DNA of 64,000 bases from Lachnospiraceae bacterium (GTDB lineage Bacteria; Bacillota; Clostridia; Lachnospirales; Lachnospiraceae): the NCBI GenBank assembly GCA_017935565.1, contig JAGBHK010000016.1, positions 104,452-168,451 on the forward strand, in the 5' to 3' direction. The notes below the pieces were generated by a model that worked only from the letters and a program-made list of their open reading frames with translations, did not search any database and was not told where the DNA came from. The stretch's first letter is position 1, and every line of letters starts with the position of its first letter. Position numbers and translations under genes: made by a program. Positions 41,782 through 50,823 of this stretch are shown one piece after another.

Positions 41782-42594
41782 CTACATATTTTTTAAATAA
41801 TCTATATCATTCCTTGCAGTCGCAGGATTCATTTCTTCTCGAAGTAAATACATATCTTTAGCATTTTCATGCAACCAAGTTTTAATTGGCGAATAATCAA
41901 TAACACCTTCTCCTAAAAGTGTAGGTACATAACCACCATTCTCATCAAGTTTAAAATCCTTAATATGCATTGCCTCTATGTATTTTCCAATGTTAGAAAG
42001 CCATCCACTCCAATATTTATTTTGGTCAGTTGTATCTGGAAATTCCAAAAGATTTGAAGCATCAAAAATCAATCGAAGATGCTTTTCATCATTAATTTCT
42101 TCTATAACTTCCATCACAACATCAAGCGAATCAAGTGGATGCCAGTACACAGGCTCAATTGCCAGTTTCACATCTAGTTTATTTGCTTCATCAACCACTC
42201 TTTTTATGCTATCAATCATATGTGGATGCCAAATCTTCTTTTCTTCAGCGCTTAAGCGTGGATAAGCAGTTTCTGTACCAACAACCTTTGCACCAACTTC
42301 TTTACTATATGCAAGGCACATTTTGATAGTGTCAACTGCATTTTTTCTAATATCCTCATCAGGATTGCCAAGGTCTTGATAACATCCAAACACTGGAATT
42401 TCAATATTTTTATCCTCAAATGCCCTTCTTATTCTTTCCAAATGATTGAAAGTAATATCTTTGTAACTATCAATTCCCACAAAGGCTTTTGGCAGCGCAA
42501 GTTGTGCTGAATTATATCCCTCTTCATATAATTTCAAAGCCAAATCTTCTATTTCCATTTTCCCATAATCATGGGCACGAACACCTATCTTCAT
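41782..42594 (-). CDS. TIM-barrel sugar phosphate isomerase/epimerase family protein
   Basis: 270 residues of the xylose-isomerase-like TIM barrel (AP endonuclease 2 fold). Metal-site residues appear in VVGTETAYPRL, LAIEPVYWHPLDSL, IFDASNLLEF and AMHIKDFKLDENG. Members isomerise or epimerise sugars and inositols. In this operon a pectin-derived sugar is likely, but the substrate is unknown. Spacing to the neighbours is 12 bases on each side, so it belongs to the rhamnose operon. Confidence 0.85.
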   Translation of the reverse strand: MKIGVRAHDYGKMEIEDLALKLYEEGYNSAQLALPKAFVGIDSYKDITFNHLERIRRAFEDKNIEIPVFGCYQDLGNPDEDIRKNAVDTIKMCLAYSKEVGAKVVGTETAYPRLSAEEKKIWHPHMIDSIKRVVDEANKLDVKLAIEPVYWHPLDSLDVVMEVIEEINDEKHLRLIFDASNLLEFPDTTDQNKYWSGWLSNIGKYIEAMHIKDFKLDENGGYVPTLLGEGVIDYSPIKTWLHENAKDMYLLREEMNPATARNDIDYLKNM

Positions 42595-42606
42595 ATTTCC
42601 TCCATT

Positions 42607-43710
42607 CTATTCTGCGTAATTTAGTGCTTCAACCAATGCCAATATAGTCAATGACTGCCCATATGCCATCGGAGCAATCAATATATTTTTATAATGTTCT
42701 GCATTCATGCCCATACCAGTTCCAATGGAAACATTCGATACAGTTCCATCCTCGTCAATATTATCTATAATAGCTTCTATAGCCTTCATTGCGCATTCTT
42801 CATAAGATTCATCCAAATATCCATATCTGATGCCTTTTAAAATACCAGCCGCAATCGCCGCCGAACCTGACACTTCTTCATAACTGTCAGCATCATCTAA
42901 AACTGTGTGCCACAATCCACTCTCACTTTGTAATTCTTTAAGAGCTCTAACTTGCGCCTTGTATGTATCAACAATTATAGTTTTCACGCCTTCATTTAAA
43001 TTTCCATCAAACATTTCAAGATAATCAAGTATTCCAAGTGTGAACCAACTATTGCCTCTACACCAGAAGATACCTCCAAAATTGTTATACTCATTAAATG
43101 ACCAACCATGATAGAAAAGACCAGTCTTTGTATCATACAAATACTTTATATGCATTAAAACCTGATGGATACCTTCATTTATCCAGACTTCATTTTTGTA
43201 CTTATTTCCCATTTTGTTAAGGAACAACACAGTCATAAATAATGTATCAATCCACATCTCGCTGTCATTAAGGGTTATCTTATTTCTATCACCTGTTACA
43301 GAACTTGTAACATGTTGGAACCCACCCTCTTTCGTTTTTGGCAGGTCATTTATAAGCCAATTTGCCCAATCTATCATCAACTCTTCAAACTCTTTATTTT
43401 TCAATGTTTCGTTTAATTCAGTTAGTGTAAGAAGTGGCGCTGTTGTATTAATATTTCTGGCAGGAAGTCCAAATTCAATATTGTCCTTATACCATTTAAT
43501 AAGAAATTCCTTATATTCTTCACTTTCATCATACTGCATGGTTTTTAAAAGCCCATAAAGTCCCACGCCCTGTGGCCAATCCCACTCAGTTATTCCCATA
43601 TCACGCTTAAAACAGCCTGTTATTTTGTCATTGTCGATAACATCAAGGTTCATAAGCTTGTTTATTACCAAATTAAGTTTACTGCGAATATATGATTTAT
43701 CATATTTCAT
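42607..43710 (-). CDS. GH105 unsaturated rhamnogalacturonyl hydrolase
   Basis: 367 residues, alpha/alpha-barrel of the YteR/YesR type. EWDWPQGVGLYGLLKTMQ, MWIDTLFMTVLFLNKMG with the catalytic aspartate, GLFYHGWSFN and GGIFWCRGNSWFTLGILDY are the family marks. The enzyme removes the unsaturated galacturonyl residue from rhamnogalacturonan disaccharides, leaving rhamnose for the downstream rhaM-rhaA-rhaD and uronate for kduI-kduD-kdgK-eda. No signal peptide, so it acts on imported disaccharide. It is first in its operon, with a promoter at 43753-43781. Confidence 0.92.
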   Translation of the reverse strand: MKYDKSYIRSKLNLVINKLMNLDVIDNDKITGCFKRDMGITEWDWPQGVGLYGLLKTMQYDESEEYKEFLIKWYKDNIEFGLPARNINTTAPLLTLTELNETLKNKEFEELMIDWANWLINDLPKTKEGGFQHVTSSVTGDRNKITLNDSEMWIDTLFMTVLFLNKMGNKYKNEVWINEGIHQVLMHIKYLYDTKTGLFYHGWSFNEYNNFGGIFWCRGNSWFTLGILDYLEMFDGNLNEGVKTIIVDTYKAQVRALKELQSESGLWHTVLDDADSYEEVSGSAAIAAGILKGIRYGYLDESYEECAMKAIEAIIDNIDEDGTVSNVSIGTGMGMNAEHYKNILIAPMAYGQSLTILALVEALNYAE

Positions 43711-43752
43711 AATGCTACTTTTCCTCCCTTTTCACGAATAAAACTAGATATT

Positions 43753-43781
43753 ATTTTAGCATAAATAACCGTGGTTGTCAT
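43753..43781 (-). promoter_or_regulatory. Promoter of the rhamnose operon
   Basis: Minus strand ATGACA (43776-43781), 17 bases, extended TGC-TAAAAT (43753-43758), 43 bases before the GH105 ATG and just after the ilvE terminator. Confidence 0.55.
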
Positions 43782-43784
43782 CAC

Positions 43785-43814
43785 AAAAAAGCGCATCACC
43801 TTCCGGTAATGCGC
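43785..43814 (-). terminator. Intrinsic terminator of ilvE
   Basis: GCGCATTACC/GGTGATGCGC stem followed by six T on the minus strand, 17 bases after the ilvE stop. Confidence 0.9.
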
Positions 43815-43830
43815 TCTAAATTCATACAAC

Positions 43831-44856
43831 TTATTTAATTTCGTAAATCCAACCTTCTGGTGCTTCAATCTTGCCCATCTGAATGCCTGTAAGTGTATCA
43901 TATAATTTCTTTGTAACAGGGCCCATCTCTGTAGCACTATTAGCAAATACGATTTCCTTACCATGGTCAACAACTTTACCAACTGGTGAAATAACAGCTG
44001 CTGTACCACATAAACCACACTCAACAAATTCTGGAAGTTCATCCTTAAAGATTTCTCTTTCTTCAACTTCAAGACCAAGGTATTCCTTAGCAACGTACAT
44101 AAGAGAACGTCTTGTGATAGAAGGAAGAATTGTTGGTGACTTAGGTGTAACAATCTTTCCATCTTTTGTTACAAACAAGAAGTTTGCACCGCCTGTTTCT
44201 TCAACCTTTGTTCTAGTAGCTGCATCAAGATACATATTCTCATCATAGCCTTCATTGTGAGCCTGTACAATTGGATGCAAGCTCATAGCATAGTTAAGAC
44301 CAGCCTTAATATCGCCTGTACCATGTGGTGCTGCTCTATCAAAATCACTAATCTTAAGTGTTAAAGACTTAACTCCGCCCTTGAAATATGGTCCTACTGG
44401 AGTTGTAAATACTCTGAACTGATAATCTGTCGATGGCTTAACACCAATAACAGGTCCAATACCAAACATAAATGGTCTAATATATAATGTTGCACCAGAA
44501 CCAAATGGAGGAACATATGCCTCATTTGCCTTAACAGTCTGTGCAACAGCTTCTATAAACTTGTCCTCTGGGAATACCGGCATCTCAAGTCTTCTACATG
44601 AATCTGCCATACGAGCTGCATTTAAGTCAGGTCTGAAGACTACTGTTCTTCCGTCTTCTGTTGTGTATGCTTTCATACCTTCAAAACATGACTGACAGTA
44701 CTGTAAAACACCTGCACACTCGCTCATATTGATAGTCGCATCTTCTGTCAATGCCCCTTCATCCCAAGCGCCGTCCTTAAAATTAGCTACAAATCTCTTG
44801 TCTGTTGGCAAATAACCAAATCCTAGGTTAGCCCAATCAATATTCTTCTTTTCCAT
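43831..44856 (-). CDS. ilvE: Branched-chain amino acid aminotransferase
   Basis: 341 residues of fold-type IV PLP enzymes. The PLP lysine lies in GTGDIKAGLNYAMSL. YCQSCFEGMKAY, ATLYIRPFMFGIG and FVECGLCGTAAVISPVG are the family segments. It transfers amino groups between glutamate and leucine, isoleucine and valine in the cytosol. AGGAAG precedes the ATG. It has its own promoter (44902-44930) and terminator, so it is monocistronic. The leader is too short for a T-box. Confidence 0.95.
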   Translation of the reverse strand: MEKKNIDWANLGFGYLPTDKRFVANFKDGAWDEGALTEDATINMSECAGVLQYCQSCFEGMKAYTTEDGRTVVFRPDLNAARMADSCRRLEMPVFPEDKFIEAVAQTVKANEAYVPPFGSGATLYIRPFMFGIGPVIGVKPSTDYQFRVFTTPVGPYFKGGVKSLTLKISDFDRAAPHGTGDIKAGLNYAMSLHPIVQAHNEGYDENMYLDAATRTKVEETGGANFLFVTKDGKIVTPKSPTILPSITRRSLMYVAKEYLGLEVEEREIFKDELPEFVECGLCGTAAVISPVGKVVDHGKEIVFANSATEMGPVTKKLYDTLTGIQMGKIEAPEGWIYEIK

Positions 44857-44901
44857 AGAACATACTTCCTTTCACAATGAATAAAAATTCAATTTCTATC
44901 T

Positions 44902-44930
44902 AGTATACTACCATATTTTTCAATATGCAA
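44902..44930 (-). promoter_or_regulatory. Promoter of ilvE
   Basis: Minus strand TTGCAT (44925-44930), 17 bases, TATACT (44902-44907), 46 bases before the ATG. Confidence 0.65.
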
Positions 44931-44972
44931 GACTTCATCAAGAAATTTCTTTAATTCGCAAAGTAGCACTTT

Positions 44973-45590
44973 TTATTCTCTCTTTAGTTCCACAAGTACA
45001 GTTCCATAATCATGATATTCTTCTGCATGGGTAACCATTACAATCGTTTTCCCCTCTTCGTTGAGGCTTTTTAATATCTCCATAACCTTTCTGGCATTTT
45101 CCTTATCAAGAGAACCTGTAGGCTCATCTGCCAGTATAAGCTTACATGACTTTATCATAAGCCTTGCCAAGGCAATTCTTTGTTGCTCTCCACCTGACAG
45201 TTTATACACTTTTTCGTCAATTTTATCGCTAAGCCCTACTCGCCTTAACGCATCTTCAATGGTAACCTCGCTTCTGTTTTTCTTTTTAATTATTTCAAGA
45301 TTCTGACGAACCGTCTTATTGTCTATAAGAGCAAAATTTTGAAACAGAAAGCCCACCACATCACCGAAGTATTTCCTACGATTTTTATTTACATCAAGGT
45401 CTAAACCGTCAATAATAATTTGACCATCATCAATCGGTTCTATGGCACCAATCATATTTAAAAGTGTAGTTTTCCCACACCCACTGTTGCCCTTTATAAC
45501 TGCAAATGCACCATCTTCTATAGTCAAATTGTAATCCTTGAATATAACATTATCTTCAAATGCTTTTTGAAGATTTTTTATCTCTATCAT
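44973..45590 (-). CDS. ABC transporter ATP-binding protein (bacteriocin-export type)
   Basis: 205 residues, a stand-alone ATPase of the MacB/LolD-like group. Walker A is GNSGCGKTTLL, the signature YKLSGGEQQRIAL, and Walker B LILADEPTGSLD. The H-loop MVTHAEEYHDYG is intact. Its start overlaps the end of the 672-residue membrane protein by four bases, so the two form one transporter. The pairing matches the ATPase plus DUF1430-type 'bacteriocin-associated' membrane protein found with lactococcin 972-like loci. The cargo is unknown. It is the last gene under the riboswitch at 48151-48257. Confidence 0.88.
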   Translation of the reverse strand: MIEIKNLQKAFEDNVIFKDYNLTIEDGAFAVIKGNSGCGKTTLLNMIGAIEPIDDGQIIIDGLDLDVNKNRRKYFGDVVGFLFQNFALIDNKTVRQNLEIIKKKNRSEVTIEDALRRVGLSDKIDEKVYKLSGGEQQRIALARLMIKSCKLILADEPTGSLDKENARKVMEILKSLNEEGKTIVMVTHAEEYHDYGTVLVELKRE

Positions 45591-47605
45591 AAGCAGCCTC
45601 CTTTAAGTATCTTTTGAATACGTTCCTTATCCATCTTATGGCAGTTATAACTTATTAATAACAAATCAATAATTATACACAACACACCTAGTGCTATTAC
45701 ATATAATAAATTGCACAAACTAAATATTTTACAAACAGCACATGCAGCACCTATTGCCACAATTCCCACAATGCAATCAGCTAAAATTATATTTCTAAAT
45801 CTCTCAAGCGTTGAATATCCTGATACTTTCTTTATGGCAATTTCAATGCCATTGCCATTATAAAGCATACTTATAAAGGTCTGATTTACAAATATGAATA
45901 ATGATAACAGTAAAACAATTATTATTATACTGATAGTTGCAAGGCGTCGTAAGGATGTAAGTGTATTAGTATAATTATCCCATACATCTTCCATATAGAA
46001 ATCAAATTTATCACAGATATTACATTCCTCAAGAAATGCTTCAACTTCTTCAATATTTGTATGCATAAATATCTGTCGATAGAAACCGAATATATCATAA
46101 TCCGTTACTTCCGTTAATGTCGGTATATCTTTAACTTTTATATTTTCAAAAGCTATTATAGGATTATGAAATATATCACTCCCTAATTCATTATCAGGCG
46201 CTAATGCCGTTATATCTAAATCATCTTCGTATTCGATAAATACCTTATCATATTTATCAGAATCCTTGCCAATATCATTGCCAAACCAGCCAAATAGGTT
46301 TTCCTGTTCTTCTTCTGTACATTTTACTTTCTTTGGTGCAAGTATATAAAGTGTATCCTCTTTATACTCAGTTATCTCGGGTAATTTTCCCATAAGATAT
46401 TCTTTATTGCATGAGCTTATATATACCAATGGTATAAAGTCTTTATCATTATTCAATCCTACATATGTATAATGCTGTACAGAACCAGATTTTCCGTCTC
46501 TTTCATATTTAAGATATAATAAATATTCTAGATACTTTGGTCCATCAAACTTAATTGCCCATTCGCAATCATGACCATACTCACACAAATCGTCATCATG
46601 ATGAAACTGGACCTGCTTAGCACCTTTTTGTCTTTCAAATAATTCTCCCTCTTTAGCATATTTTAACCACTGAGTTATAGCTGCCACATTTGAAGCTGCT
46701 ATACATATTACTAAAAATAGTACAATCGCCTTAACCAGGTAATTGCCAATAATTGTCTCTTTCGATATTTTTTTATTTGAAAAAACCTCTGAAACATCAT
46801 ACCATAAAAGTTTCAGATAAAAGAATGCCATAATAGCAATTATTAATATAGTCACTACGAACATTGTTCCAAACTCAAACAATCCACCACAAACCAAATA
46901 ATTAAAGAATGCCTCTATTAAAAACACAGAAAGCATAATAACAGCATCCCTTAATATACATTTTCCCAGTGTTTCTTTAAGCCCTTCTCCCATAGTAAAC
47001 CTTACAAATATTTCTTTTTTCTCCAAAGAAATAAAATAATATTCAACTAAAAGTATAACCACTGCAATAATGAGCCAAATCGCACATACCATTCCTTGAA
47101 TATCTTCTAATGAATTATATCCATCAAAGTGTGGAAATCCACCTGCATATTTATCTATAAGTTCCTGCTTAAAATGGTACATATCATCATATTCACCGAT
47201 AAGCATAAATCCTTCTGGATATTTTTGAATCGTCTCTGCATTTAAATCATAAAACGAATTATATTCCACTGTAACATTTCCGCTAAATAAGCTTCCCTGT
47301 CTATTTTCATATACTTTTTCTTCTTTTTCTAAATACTCTCTTACCCTATCACTTGCATATATTTGAAACTGTTGATTTCGAGTACTTTTCGTCTCTTCGA
47401 CCATGAAAAATACCTGTAGATTATGTTTAATAGCGGTCTGTTCTACCTCTTCAAGCATTTCCATTTCCTGACCATCCTCGGGGTAAAAAGAAACATAATA
47501 ATAGTTACTATTTAGGTATGACAAATACTGTATATACATCTCATTGCTAAATAGCAAACCTATAAAAAAGAGTACACCAAATATAATCAATTTATTTCTT
47601 TTCAT
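45587..47605 (-). CDS. DUF1430-like ABC transporter membrane protein
   Basis: 672 residues. One helix at the N terminus (about 7-25), a large extracytoplasmic domain (about 30-165), three helices at about 170-275, a fourth near 290-310, a second large outside domain (about 315-540), and three to four helices at 545-665. This FtsX/MacB-like layout with duplicated outside domains resembles the bacteriocin-associated integral membrane family. It is translated with the ATPase gene (4-base overlap) and overlaps the preceding 152-residue gene by 14 bases. Family placement rests on layout and neighbours, so it is moderate. Confidence 0.7.
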   Translation of the reverse strand: MKRNKLIIFGVLFFIGLLFSNEMYIQYLSYLNSNYYYVSFYPEDGQEMEMLEEVEQTAIKHNLQVFFMVEETKSTRNQQFQIYASDRVREYLEKEEKVYENRQGSLFSGNVTVEYNSFYDLNAETIQKYPEGFMLIGEYDDMYHFKQELIDKYAGGFPHFDGYNSLEDIQGMVCAIWLIIAVVILLVEYYFISLEKKEIFVRFTMGEGLKETLGKCILRDAVIMLSVFLIEAFFNYLVCGGLFEFGTMFVVTILIIAIMAFFYLKLLWYDVSEVFSNKKISKETIIGNYLVKAIVLFLVICIAASNVAAITQWLKYAKEGELFERQKGAKQVQFHHDDDLCEYGHDCEWAIKFDGPKYLEYLLYLKYERDGKSGSVQHYTYVGLNNDKDFIPLVYISSCNKEYLMGKLPEITEYKEDTLYILAPKKVKCTEEEQENLFGWFGNDIGKDSDKYDKVFIEYEDDLDITALAPDNELGSDIFHNPIIAFENIKVKDIPTLTEVTDYDIFGFYRQIFMHTNIEEVEAFLEECNICDKFDFYMEDVWDNYTNTLTSLRRLATISIIIIVLLLSLFIFVNQTFISMLYNGNGIEIAIKKVSGYSTLERFRNIILADCIVGIVAIGAACAVCKIFSLCNLLYVIALGVLCIIIDLLLISYNCHKMDKERIQKILKGGCL

Positions 47606-48050
47606 TTACTTCCAAGCCCCACTTATCATATGCATAACCTAATAATCGTTCAATATCTTCTCTGTGTTCATCAATGGTTCCAACATTATCTTTACCAATC
47701 AACTGCATATTCTCATCGAAATGTATTACCACATCTTCATCTTTATCACTTGTATAGATTATTTCACAACCACCAAAAAGTTCAGGATAAATCATAAAAT
47801 CCCCATCCGAAGTAATCAAATCTATATTAGTAGCGAAAAAAGGATAGTTTGGAAAATTAACCGAATATGTAACACCAGTTTCTTGATCCGTTTCATGATA
47901 AATCTCTCCCTCTTCAATATATTCAACTTTTGAAGCAAACTTAAAATATATATAACCTAAATTCACTAACCATAAAATGTTAAATAATACAAACACTGCT
48001 ATAACTGTAATTATTGTATATTTGAGTCCTTTTTTTCTTTTTCTTTTCAT
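47592..48050 (-). CDS. Small membrane-anchored protein of the ABC module
   Basis: 152 residues. A very basic start (KRKRKKGLK) precedes one membrane helix (about 10-31) and an outside domain of about 120 residues ending AYDKWGLEVNEKK. No known family. The ATG at 48050 has GGAGG 7 bases upstream; an upstream extension lacks one. It lies just upstream of, and overlaps, the DUF1430-like gene, so it is likely a component of or cargo for the exporter. A 3' fragment of a paralogue lies immediately upstream (48071-48130). It is not a recognisable lactococcin 972 precursor. Confidence 0.65.
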   Translation of the reverse strand: MKRKRKKGLKYTIITVIAVFVLFNILWLVNLGYIYFKFASKVEYIEEGEIYHETDQETGVTYSVNFPNYPFFATNIDLITSDGDFMIYPELFGGCEIIYTSDKDEDVVIHFDENMQLIGKDNVGTIDEHREDIERLLGYAYDKWGLEVNEKK

Positions 48051-48070
48051 TTTGTACCTCCGTATTTTTA

Positions 48071-48130
48071 CTAATCTCCTAGAATGCCCCATTTATCATA
48101 GGCTAGTTCATAATAATGGTCTATATACAC
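48071..48130 (-). pseudogene. 3' remnant of a paralogue of the 152-residue gene
   Basis: Reading to the TAG at 48071-48073 gives YELAYDKWGILGD, which matches the AYDKWGLEVN end of the neighbouring gene. No start or ribosome site precedes it; the riboswitch terminator lies directly upstream. It indicates a tandem duplication followed by deletion. Confidence 0.6.
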
Positions 48131-48182
48131 AAAAAAGGTTGCAAAAATAAGCATGTATATAACATTTCTTATTTTCGCAACC
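48131..48182 (-). terminator. Riboswitch expression platform: intrinsic terminator
   Basis: GGTTGCGAAAATAAG/CTTATTTTTGCAACC, a 15-bp stem followed by six T on the minus strand. Its 5' arm contains GGTTGC, which is also the 3' core of the c-di-GMP aptamer, so the two folds exclude one another. Confidence 0.85.
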
Positions 48183-48257
48183 AGACAATCTTGTTTTATA
48201 AAGACTCACGGCTTTGCGCACCATTATCACTAATGGGATGCCCCTTGTATATCACAT
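48151..48257 (-). ncRNA. Probable class I c-di-GMP (GEMM-I) riboswitch
   Basis: Minus strand, in order: AAGGGGCATCC; a CCATTA-GTGA-TAATGG stem with a GNRA tetraloop; the signature GCGCAAAGCC; a second stem AGTCTT/AAGATT; and GGTTGC at the 3' edge. This is the GEMM-I layout. P1 can form between ATGT.ATATA near 48246-48256 and TATATACAT near 48151-48160. The base before CGCAAAGCC is G where A is usual, which may affect ligand preference. Since the terminator uses GGTTGC, ligand binding should favour read-through (ON switch) into the exporter module. Confidence 0.8.
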
Positions 48258-48264
48258 AGATGTT

Positions 48265-48292
48265 ATTATATCAAAAAAAAACATACCGTCAA
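48265..48292 (-). promoter_or_regulatory. Promoter of the riboswitch-controlled module
   Basis: Minus strand TTGACG (48287-48292), 16 bases, TATAAT (48265-48270). Transcription would begin close to 48257, right at the aptamer P1. Confidence 0.75.
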
Positions 48293-48345
48293 GTAATTTT
48301 CGCTTCGACGATAGTAATCATTCTAAATCATTCTTTGCGCAACTT

Positions 48346-48384
48346 TTTCGGCTAATTTATAATCAAAATATATTTTAGCCGAAA
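48346..48384. other. 10-bp perfect inverted repeat upstream of the amino-acid ABC genes
   Basis: TTTCGGCTAA (48346-48355) and TTAGCCGAAA (48375-48384) with a 19-base AT-rich loop. It lies about 50 bases upstream of the promoter at 48434, so it could be an operator. The rest of the 48093-48500 gap is explained by the riboswitch and two promoters. Confidence 0.5.
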
Positions 48385-48433
48385 TATTTCTCTTTTATAC
48401 TTTCTATTTTCCCCATCAAACCCCTATTACTAA

Positions 48434-48462
48434 TTGCATTTTCCCCAATTTCGTGATATATT
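48434..48462 (+). promoter_or_regulatory. Promoter of the amino-acid ABC operon
   Basis: TTGCAT (48434-48439), 17 bases, TATATT (48457-48462), 38 bases before the ATG at 48501. Confidence 0.6.
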
Positions 48463-48500
48463 TTAAAAAGTTAATGATATGCGAAAGGAAAGATTTTTTT

Positions 48501-50060
48501 ATGAAAAGAATACTAGCATTGGCAATGCTTATTATTACCACAATGACAATGTTTGTCGGCTGTGGTGATGACAAAGACAGTGCATCAAATGCGGCTAAGG
48601 TAATAGATATTGACCTTACAAGCGAAGAATATGCATTTGGTGTCGACAAGGACCAGCCTGAGTTGTTAGAAAAAGTTAACGAATTTATTTCTACTATAAA
48701 GCAGGATGGTACATTTAATGATATTTGTAACAACTATTTTGGTGATGGCGAACCTGTTGCAGTTGAGTCACATGAATACGATGAATCTAAGAATCAATTG
48801 GTAGTTGCTACAAATGCTGCATTTGAGCCATTTGAATACAAAAAAGGCGATTACTATTATGGAATAGATATGGAAATTGCCGCTGCGCTTGCAGAGTATT
48901 TGGACATGGAATTAGTTATCAACAATATGGATTTCGACGCTGTTTGTTTATCAGTTGGTCAGCATAAATGTGATATTGCTATGGCAGGATTAACTGTAAA
49001 AGAAGACAGAAAAGAACATGTTGATTTCTCAGTGTCATATTACAGTGCTTCGCAGAAGCTTATTGTTCCAGGTAACAGCGATGAATTTGACGGTTGCAAA
49101 ACAGCTGAAGATGTTGTAGAAATTTTAAATTCAAAGACAAGTTCAACAAAAATTGGTGTACAAAATGGTACAACAGGTAAATTATATGTTGAAGGTGATG
49201 CAGAATGGGAATTTGACGGATTGCCAGCCAGTGCAGTTGGATATAAAAACGGTTCTCTTGCAGTACAGGATTTGATGAATGGTGGTCTTGATTATGTAAT
49301 ATTAGACTCTGCTCCTGCCATCTGCATTACAGAAGCATTAGCCAAGGATACAACAAGTTTTTCTCAAAAAATTGATACTTTTAAAGAATATTTTATTGAA
49401 TATGATGGTTACAAAACAGTTTTAGAAGGTTTAAAGAACACATTGCTTATCGCAGTTTCAGGCTTACTTATTGGTATTATCATTGGTACTGTAATAGCTA
49501 CAGCAAGAGTTGTTCCAAAGTACAAAATGCTTCCTAGAGTTTTAAATGCAATTTGTACATTTTACGTTGCATTGTTTAGAGGAACTCCTATGGTTGTGCA
49601 GCTCCTCGTTTCTTACTACGTTGTATTGCCACTTATTGGTGTAAATATGACAGGTGTTGAGGTTGCTATCCTTATCTTCGGACTTAACAGTGGTGCGTAC
49701 ATATCAGAAATTATGCGTGCAGGTATTTTATCCGTTGATGCTGGACAGTTGGAAGCTGGACGTGCTGTTGGATTGAGTTTCTCAACAACTATGATAAAGA
49801 TTGTAATTCCACAGGCTGTAAAGAATATTTTACCTACAATGGGTAACGAATTTATTACACTTATTAAAGAAACATCAGTTGTAAGTTTTGTTGGTGCAAC
49901 AGACCTTTATGTTGCATTTAACAATATCGGTAGTACATCATACGAATTTATGATTCCATACCTTGTTATGGCAATGATTTACATTGTATTAGTATTAATC
50001 ATAAGTTTAGGTATTAAAATAATGGAAAGGAGCCTTAGAAAGAGTGATAGACGTAATTAA
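48501..50060 (+). CDS. Polar amino-acid ABC transporter: circularly permuted binding domain fused to permease
   Basis: 519 residues. A lipoprotein signal with lipobox FVGC places the cysteine near residue 21. The solute-binding domain is permuted: residues about 35-85 ([33 protein letters not shown]) are what is normally the C-terminal end, and the usual N-terminal part starts only at about 100 ([20 protein letters not shown]). The second half, from about 310, is a HisM/GlnP-type permease with the EAA loop [21 protein letters not shown]. It should import a polar amino acid. The ATG at 48501 follows AAAGGAAAG. The ATPase gene overlaps its 3' end by 17 bases. Confidence 0.88.
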
Positions 50061-50823
50061 TCTTAAGAAAACATTTGGTGATAAAGAAATTTTAAAAGGC
50101 ATTGATATTACTATAAATAAGGGCGATATCGTTTGCGTAATCGGACCTTCAGGCTCCGGTAAAAGTACATTTCTTCGTTGTTTAAACTGTATGGAAGACC
50201 CAACAGATGGTCAGATAATGTTTAGAGGCGAGAATATCGCTGATATGAAGGTTGACATCAACATTCACAGACAGCATATGGGAATGGTTTTCCAGCATTT
50301 CAATCTTTTTAATAACAAAACAGTTGTTGAAAACATTATGTTGGCTCCATACCACATTCAGTGCAAGAACTTGAAGAAAGACATTAAGGCAGGCAATGTT
50401 CCAGCCGAAACCACAAAAAAAGATATTAAAAAGAACTGTTTAGACCAGGCTATGGCTCTTTTAGAGAGAATCGGTCTTGCCGACAAGGCAAATGTTTATC
50501 CATCTACTTTATCAGGTGGTCAGAAACAGCGTGTTGCCATAGTTCGTGCATTGGCAATGAACCCTGATGTTATCCTTTTCGACGAGCCTACAAGTGCTCT
50601 CGACCCAGAAATGGTTGGCGAAGTTCTCGACCTTATGAAAGACCTTGCTAAAGAAGGCATGACAATGGTTATAGTTACTCACGAAATGGGCTTTGCCAAG
50701 GAAGTTGCCAATCGCGTAATCTTTATTGACGAAGGCGTTATTTTGGAAAGCGCTGAGCCAAAGGAATTTTTTGAAAATCCAAAACATCCAAGACTTAAAG
50801 AATTTTTGTCGAAGGTGTTGTAA
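50044..50823 (+). CDS. Amino-acid ABC transporter ATP-binding protein
   Basis: 259 residues of the GlnQ/HisP type. Walker A is [15 protein letters not shown], the Q-loop [11 protein letters not shown], the signature [13 protein letters not shown], Walker [16 protein letters not shown] and the H-loop VTHEMGFAK. It powers the fused binding/permease protein encoded just upstream. The start is a GTG at 50044, inside the end of the upstream gene, with GGAG about 11 bases before it. A 20-30 residue insert ([20 protein letters not shown]) lies between the Q-loop and the signature. Confidence 0.93.

Follow-up and report, generated by a model that had tools for sequence, protein, structure and literature searches.

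What might a cyclic di-GMP (c-di-GMP) riboswitch be doing in front of a bacteriocin-type transport operon? The question is raised by a stretch of 64,000 nucleotides (nt) from a Lachnospiraceae bacterium (assembly GCA_017935565.1, contig JAGBHK010000016.1), called the window here and numbered from its first letter. On its minus strand, between positions 48292 and 48131, a promoter, an aptamer of the class I c-di-GMP family (c-di-GMP-I, also GEMM-I) and a terminator precede three genes, one of them for a DUF1430-like permease. The best explanation, to which we give a probability of about 0.7, is that transcription of an immunity/transport module of the lactococcin-972/mediterrocin type is switched on by a receptor-less c-di-GMP-I riboswitch. 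All window features described below lie on the minus strand.

The aptamer, the terminator and the direction of switching

The whole window was searched with Rfam models. RF01051 matched at 48252-48173 (44.1 bits, gathering threshold 35, E 2.3e-5) and was the sole model reaching gathering level within the 64 kb, so the GEMM-I-like aptamer proposed in an earlier note on this DNA passed the covariance check. In sequence, covariance alignment and fold, the P2 stem (48236-48221, CCAUUA-GUGA-UAAUGG) is capped by a GUGA tetraloop of the GNRA/GYRA kind, and the core CGCAAAGCC lies at 48218-48210, preceded by G 48219. P3 was folded as a plain 6-bp hairpin, in which no tetraloop receptor was found. A receptor-less GYRA-loop subtype of c-di-GMP-I has been described (PMC11218506), and the GUGA loop together with the plain P3 hairpin indicates that the window aptamer fits this type. 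Shared with it are the covariance match, the assigned ligand contacts, the GUGA loop, the absent receptor and the terminator platform; the window RNA differs from the usual RF01051 members in its internal loop (AUC/UGC versus AAA/GAC) and in its predicted target, a bacteriocin-immunity-type module. Judged from its sequence, the window RNA is a c-di-GMP-I class riboswitch, a divergent new case of a known class.

A sigma-70-type promoter was found upstream (48292-48265), just where the earlier note had placed it, with TTGACG as -35 (48292-48287), TATAAT as -10 (48270-48265) and a 16-nt spacer. Its 11 of 12 consensus matches ranked top of 25 candidates in the 3.8 kb scanned. The number of candidates was near chance (25 versus 22.1 in shuffles, standard deviation 4.1, at a 9-of-12 cut-off), and only the top score is notable.

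Downstream, folding and a stem overlap scan located an intrinsic terminator at 48182-48137, with a 15-bp stem (48182-48168 paired with 48151-48137) and a U-tract at 48136-48131. As had been claimed, the base of its 5′ arm reuses the GGUUGC strand of the aptamer (48182-48177): GGUU has two alternative partners, AGCC in the aptamer and AACC in the terminator, and the two pairings are mutually exclusive. The 59 nt at 48178-48120, which hold most of the terminator stem, gave z = -4.4, with none of 200 shuffles as stable. When the RNA was refolded stepwise (6-nt steps), the aptamer pairing fitted the minimum-energy fold at no cost through 117 nt; by 123 nt the terminator had an advantage of 3.8 kcal/mol. 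Counting stems of at least 11 pairs, 61 of 159 Lachnospiraceae RNAs have a terminator that overlaps the 3′ end of the aptamer, and so do seven of the nine c-di-GMP-I RNAs in the window's genome; among shuffled downstream sequences the count was 17 of 795. Six of these seven (L004-L009, the window RNA among them) have a terminator arm that starts at GGUUGC or immediately ahead of it; that of L003 starts only in the last five bases of the aptamer, and in the RNAs L001 and L002 the terminator is separate from the aptamer. The overlap of the window RNA is the longest of the nine.

Because the aptamer and terminator folds exclude each other, the window RNA is best read as probably a transcriptional ON switch. 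The earlier note had reached the same direction from known GEMM-I logic; the direction stands as probable, but the logic is not general, since accounts of Clostridioides difficile present its class I RNAs as OFF switches (PMC11477304; PMC9262584). In the Geobacter pilM riboswitch, an ON switch, aptamer and terminator are likewise exclusive, since a strand of the aptamer is taken up into the terminator (PMC9262584); it differs from the window RNA, for which c-di-GMP is the expected ligand, in sensing cyclic GMP-AMP (cGAMP), and it controls pilus-related genes. In the mechanism that we propose, the aptamer would fold first on the nascent RNA. With c-di-GMP bound, GGUU would be held by AGCC and the following C would touch the ligand, leaving the terminator without its base, and the polymerase would read through. 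Without ligand, GGUUGC would form the bottom of the 15-bp terminator and the transcript would stop ahead of the operon. The genome holds 18 GGDEF matches, which suggests that it can make c-di-GMP.

The controlled operon

A GGAGG ribosome-binding site (48061-48057) stands before the ATG at 48050. The first gene (48050-47592) encodes a small membrane protein of 152 amino acids (aa) with an N-terminal hydrophobic helix, the third partner of the module; its structure model was too poor for use (mean predicted local distance difference test score 55). It is followed by a 672-aa DUF1430-like permease, apparently with two FtsX/MacB-like repeats (47605-45587), and by an ATP-binding cassette (ABC) ATPase of the bacteriocin-associated, TIGR03608-like type (45590-44973; PF00005, 113 bits). 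The permease matched PF07242 (DUF1430) with 30.6 bits (cut-off 28.2), and its best match, TIGR01654, remained below cut-off (44.9 versus 189.35 bits), as did TIGR03608, the best match of the ATPase (233.2 versus 254.85 bits). The DUF1430 profile hit none of the sequences of solved structures at E 0.1. In the structural comparison of the permease model (Foldseek, second-look alignment), BceAB came first, and YbbAP, HrtBA, FtsEX, MacB, LolCDE, YtrEF and one other ABC transporter made up the rest of the first 38 matches.

The same genome carries a second DUF1430 module (contig C22), with a c-di-GMP-I RNA upstream, a permease 23% identical to that of the window and, as its first gene, a 145-aa secreted protein whose start looks Sec-type by eye. 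In relatives of the module, the adjacent secreted gene matched the mediterrocin model NF052268 with 64.8 and 99.5 bits, and with 141.4 bits in Bacillus. A mediterrocin-like gene was found at 14 of 32 DUF1430 loci outside the window's genome, a set that includes some fragments, one locus with in-frame stops and several near a contig edge or with about 1.5 kb upstream, and from which a weak DUF1430 relative (L086, also without an RNA) and a fragment (L240) were excluded. The Pfam family Lactococcin_972 (PF09683) was detected in 2 of 200 family genomes, the window's genome not among them, and the mediterrocin model scored above cut-off in 1 of 61 genomes. In two relatives of the same genus (L043 and L044), a response-regulator-like (LytTR-like) and a kinase-like gene, recognized by eye, adjoin the module instead of an RNA. 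None of the six other genus genomes having ilvE keeps the window's neighbours within 1.5 kb of that gene. The DUF1430 gene of L237 (G285:C9) has three in-frame stops, and an uninterrupted copy is present elsewhere in the same genome.

The mediterrocin paper regards DUF1430 as likely immunity and the bacteriocin as Sec-secreted (PMC12345188). Like the window, the mediterrocin cluster of Mediterraneibacter gnavus contains a DUF1430 permease (mdcH) and an ABC protein (mdcI), and mediterrocin genes are found with relatives of the window's own module; unlike the window operon, the cluster includes a transcription regulator and a mediterrocin gene. That paper's main text contains neither "riboswitch" nor "c-di-GMP" (PMC12345188). 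The pneumococcal scbABC/scbBC system (streptococcin B) is also of the lactococcin-972 type, and its bacteriocin-less scbBC pair occurs alone, as at the window, in 157 of 571 genomes (PMC11796350). Streptococcin B loci are controlled by competence and peptide signals, in contrast to the riboswitch here. As for the BceAB bacitracin transporter, it shares about 10% identity with the window permease, and a two-component partner is absent from the window operon. Bacitracin is linked to the lipid II cycle. Most likely, the operon would protect against a bacteriocin of the lipid-II type, acting like BceAB, rather than export one.

In the earlier note the genes had been described as a small membrane protein plus a DUF1430-like ABC exporter. 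The genes are there, with DUF1430 above its Pfam cut-off; the word "exporter" probably does not describe them best, because Sec-secreted bacteriocins of the mediterrocin type occur together with related modules and BceAB heads the fold matches of the permease model. Gene families and model fold together point to a lactococcin-972/mediterrocin-type immunity/transport module as, most likely, the better label. We consider it unlikely that the operon is instead a dedicated exporter, without an immunity function, for a bacteriocin or peptide encoded elsewhere, a possibility that is compatible with the same riboswitch reading. The ATPase is indeed nearest to TIGR03608, a "putative bacteriocin export" model, and the exporters MacB and HrtBA figure among the structural matches of the permease, but the best fold match is BceAB, mediterrocin is Sec-secreted (PMC12345188), as the small protein of the second module may be by its start, and the genome yielded no mediterrocin above cut-off for such an exporter to carry, though the assembly is 81% complete.

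Points against the riboswitch reading and the unusual internal loop

Several results weigh against an ON switch for an immunity module. The aptamer stretch alone was no more stable than its shuffles (z = -0.15; 82 of 200 folded equally well or better), and its covariance score is the lowest among the nine c-di-GMP-I RNAs of the genome. The P2 3x3 internal loop reads AUC/UGC, in place of the usual AAA/GAC, in this aptamer only among 158 parsed Lachnospiraceae aptamers (162 instances minus three duplicates and one unparsable); AAA was present in 150 and GAC in 135. AAA/GAC is a usual feature and no formal class criterion, and the departure of the window is real. The L005 aptamer of this genome resembles that of the window in its 3′ half and has the consensus internal loop. 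A conserved class I RNA, Bc1, is reported to give no response in vivo (PMC11218506). As for the operon, no open reading frame (ORF) of the bacteriocin kind lies between the U-tract and the ATG at 48050, a mediterrocin hidden Markov model built here found none at 42001-50500 of the window, and the mediterrocin model gave none above cut-off in the genome (one match, E 0.03), which is 81% complete. Moreover, a c-di-GMP-I RNA with a DUF1430 module was seen only in the window's genome (two of two modules, found in a draft assembly, versus 0 of 32 loci elsewhere), a comparison in which the 32 loci are not independent, some pairs looking near-identical, and a few RNAs could have escaped detection.

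The low score and the private loop, for which no close relative was found among 299 family genomes, would be expected of a decayed aptamer, one that derives from a c-di-GMP-I riboswitch, has lost useful binding and leaves its strong terminator as a constant attenuator. When the closed-loop pattern of the window was searched, it appeared in 4 of the 299 genomes, and by eye a hairpin was formed only at the window's own match. We regard decay as quite unlikely: the three assigned ligand contacts and the CGCAAA core are kept, the C-G tertiary pair reported for Cd1 (PMC9262584) is kept as well, no other RNA of the genome has so long a terminator overlap, and the loop is altered on both sides, in a way that looks coordinated.

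For the ligand, we take Rfam columns 11, 38 and 83, assigned by hand, to be the contact positions. At these columns the window reads G, A and C in the covariance alignment. The class I contacts are Vc2 G20, A47 and C92 (PMC11218506), and binding of cGAMP has been linked to the change G20A (PMC6274999). With G at assigned position 20 and the contacts kept, c-di-GMP is the expected ligand of the window aptamer. The earlier note had suspected that the G before CGCAAAGCC alters ligand preference. G 48219 is present, but it is the wrong base, the specificity position being G20; as a specificity marker it was rejected, since 17 of the 158 aptamers, the window included (16 of the 157 others), carry G just ahead of CGCAAA; what is unusual in the window aptamer is its whole AUC/UGC loop. 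It is very improbable that the changed loop makes the RNA a variant preferring another cyclic dinucleotide: the loop is unique among the 158 and other-specificity variants of the class exist (G20A; PMC6274999), but the assigned position 20 is G and the flagged G before the core is shared by other aptamers.

The odd internal loop would show how much change the aptamer core tolerates, and the window RNA is suited to standard in vitro assays. At the column assigned to Vc2 G20, the aptamer before the second DUF1430 module (L038:9905-10010, minus strand; G000:C22) has A, the cGAMP-type signature; A is present at this column in 16 of the 158 Lachnospiraceae aptamers.

c-di-GMP-I RNAs in the genome and in the family

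The RNA class is known, and bacteriocin-type immunity is apparently a new target class for c-di-GMP riboswitches. Genes already placed under c-di-GMP riboswitches, in a list for C. difficile, concern motility, pili and adhesins, and a phage antitoxin RNA and certain small proteins are also on it (PMC11477304). A literature search found no title or abstract opening on c-di-GMP riboswitches controlling bacteriocins, with subscription journals mostly outside its coverage. If true, c-di-GMP riboswitches gating bacteriocin production and immunity in gut Lachnospiraceae would tie an attachment or community decision directly to chemical competition, possibly coupling a signal of life on surfaces to warfare between bacteria.

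Nine c-di-GMP-I RNAs above cut-off were found in the window's genome (G000), and their downstream genes were read by hand. Two precede the window module and the second DUF1430 module. Another (contig C38) precedes genes for a 134-aa secreted protein, two permeases (the one tested is FtsX in Pfam) and an ABC ATPase; one leads to a 146-aa protein, a 2349-aa RTX-repeat protein and HlyB/HlyD-type genes; and one is followed by consecutive genes for proteins of about 160 aa, together with two for SUKH-domain proteins; a further RNA has members of this family of small proteins behind it again. Further targets are secreted serpins, two in tandem (L037:1259-1360, plus strand; Pfam identifies the first as a serpin, and the second resembles it by eye), and a GH16 enzyme. 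The RNA at L036:3764-3845 (plus strand, 78.6 bits) has a separate terminator, and the next gene is on the opposite strand. By this hand assignment, six of the nine RNAs appear to lead export- or antagonism-like operons. For L038 and L039, neither Pfam nor NCBIfam gave a usable match to the small secreted proteins. The aptamer of the second module is nearest to L058, L111, L015 (a secreted-protein operon), L137 and L122 (86-88%), and such likeness across bacteriocin-like and secreted-protein operons hints at shared cassettes. At L040 and L041 (G000:C41 and C11), three near-identical RNAs (97-99%) stand before about 150-aa proteins, RTX and HlyB/HlyD-type genes and SUKH proteins. Similar-looking small proteins are also found under several c-di-GMP-I RNAs of the genome G138 (L112, L116).

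Across the family, a c-di-GMP-I RNA was present in 79 of 200 genomes, and downstream genes were read for 162 instances, many from 1.5 kb only. The Pfam families of the first genes (98 genes, 105 instances) were those usual for c-di-GMP, with HisKA in 8, GGDEF in 6, SBP_bac_3 in 6, and surface and signalling domains; RHS repeats occurred twice among the 25 of 94 families listed. A MacB-type ATPase was encoded within 4 kb downstream in 5 of the 105 instances (L131, L137, L169, L171 and L204b), versus an expectation of 0.80, based on the 870 ATPases of this type in 57 genomes (Poisson P 0.0014). These five cases come from three genomes, one of the window's genus, the two counts used different thresholds, and the background is possibly too low because at most 55 candidates were scored per genome; the count omits L067, which has the ATPase on a shorter stretch, and three modules of the window's genome. 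Overall, the enrichment of bacteriocin-like, RTX or MacB-type operons behind c-di-GMP-I RNAs is modest.

We tentatively suggest, as a broader idea on the doubtful side, that c-di-GMP in Lachnospiraceae may run an antagonism regulon, in which ON-type c-di-GMP-I riboswitches, perhaps as portable cassettes, would have been recruited repeatedly before unrelated bacteriocin, immunity, RTX and MacB-type operons, here occupying the place that, beside the module of the two genus relatives, belongs to the LytTR-like regulator and kinase-like genes. A scan for double-glycine leaders showed no enrichment (2 forward versus 10 in the reverse-strand control). Small ORFs resembling double-glycine-leader bacteriocins were seen by eye downstream of the RNAs L020, L122 and L111, with no significant family model. 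In L137 and L169 (G132 and G016, two other genera), a small protein, two permease-like proteins and an ABC ATPase are arranged in the layout of contig C38 of the window's genome, and one permease of each is weakly similar to its counterpart there (about 20% identity).
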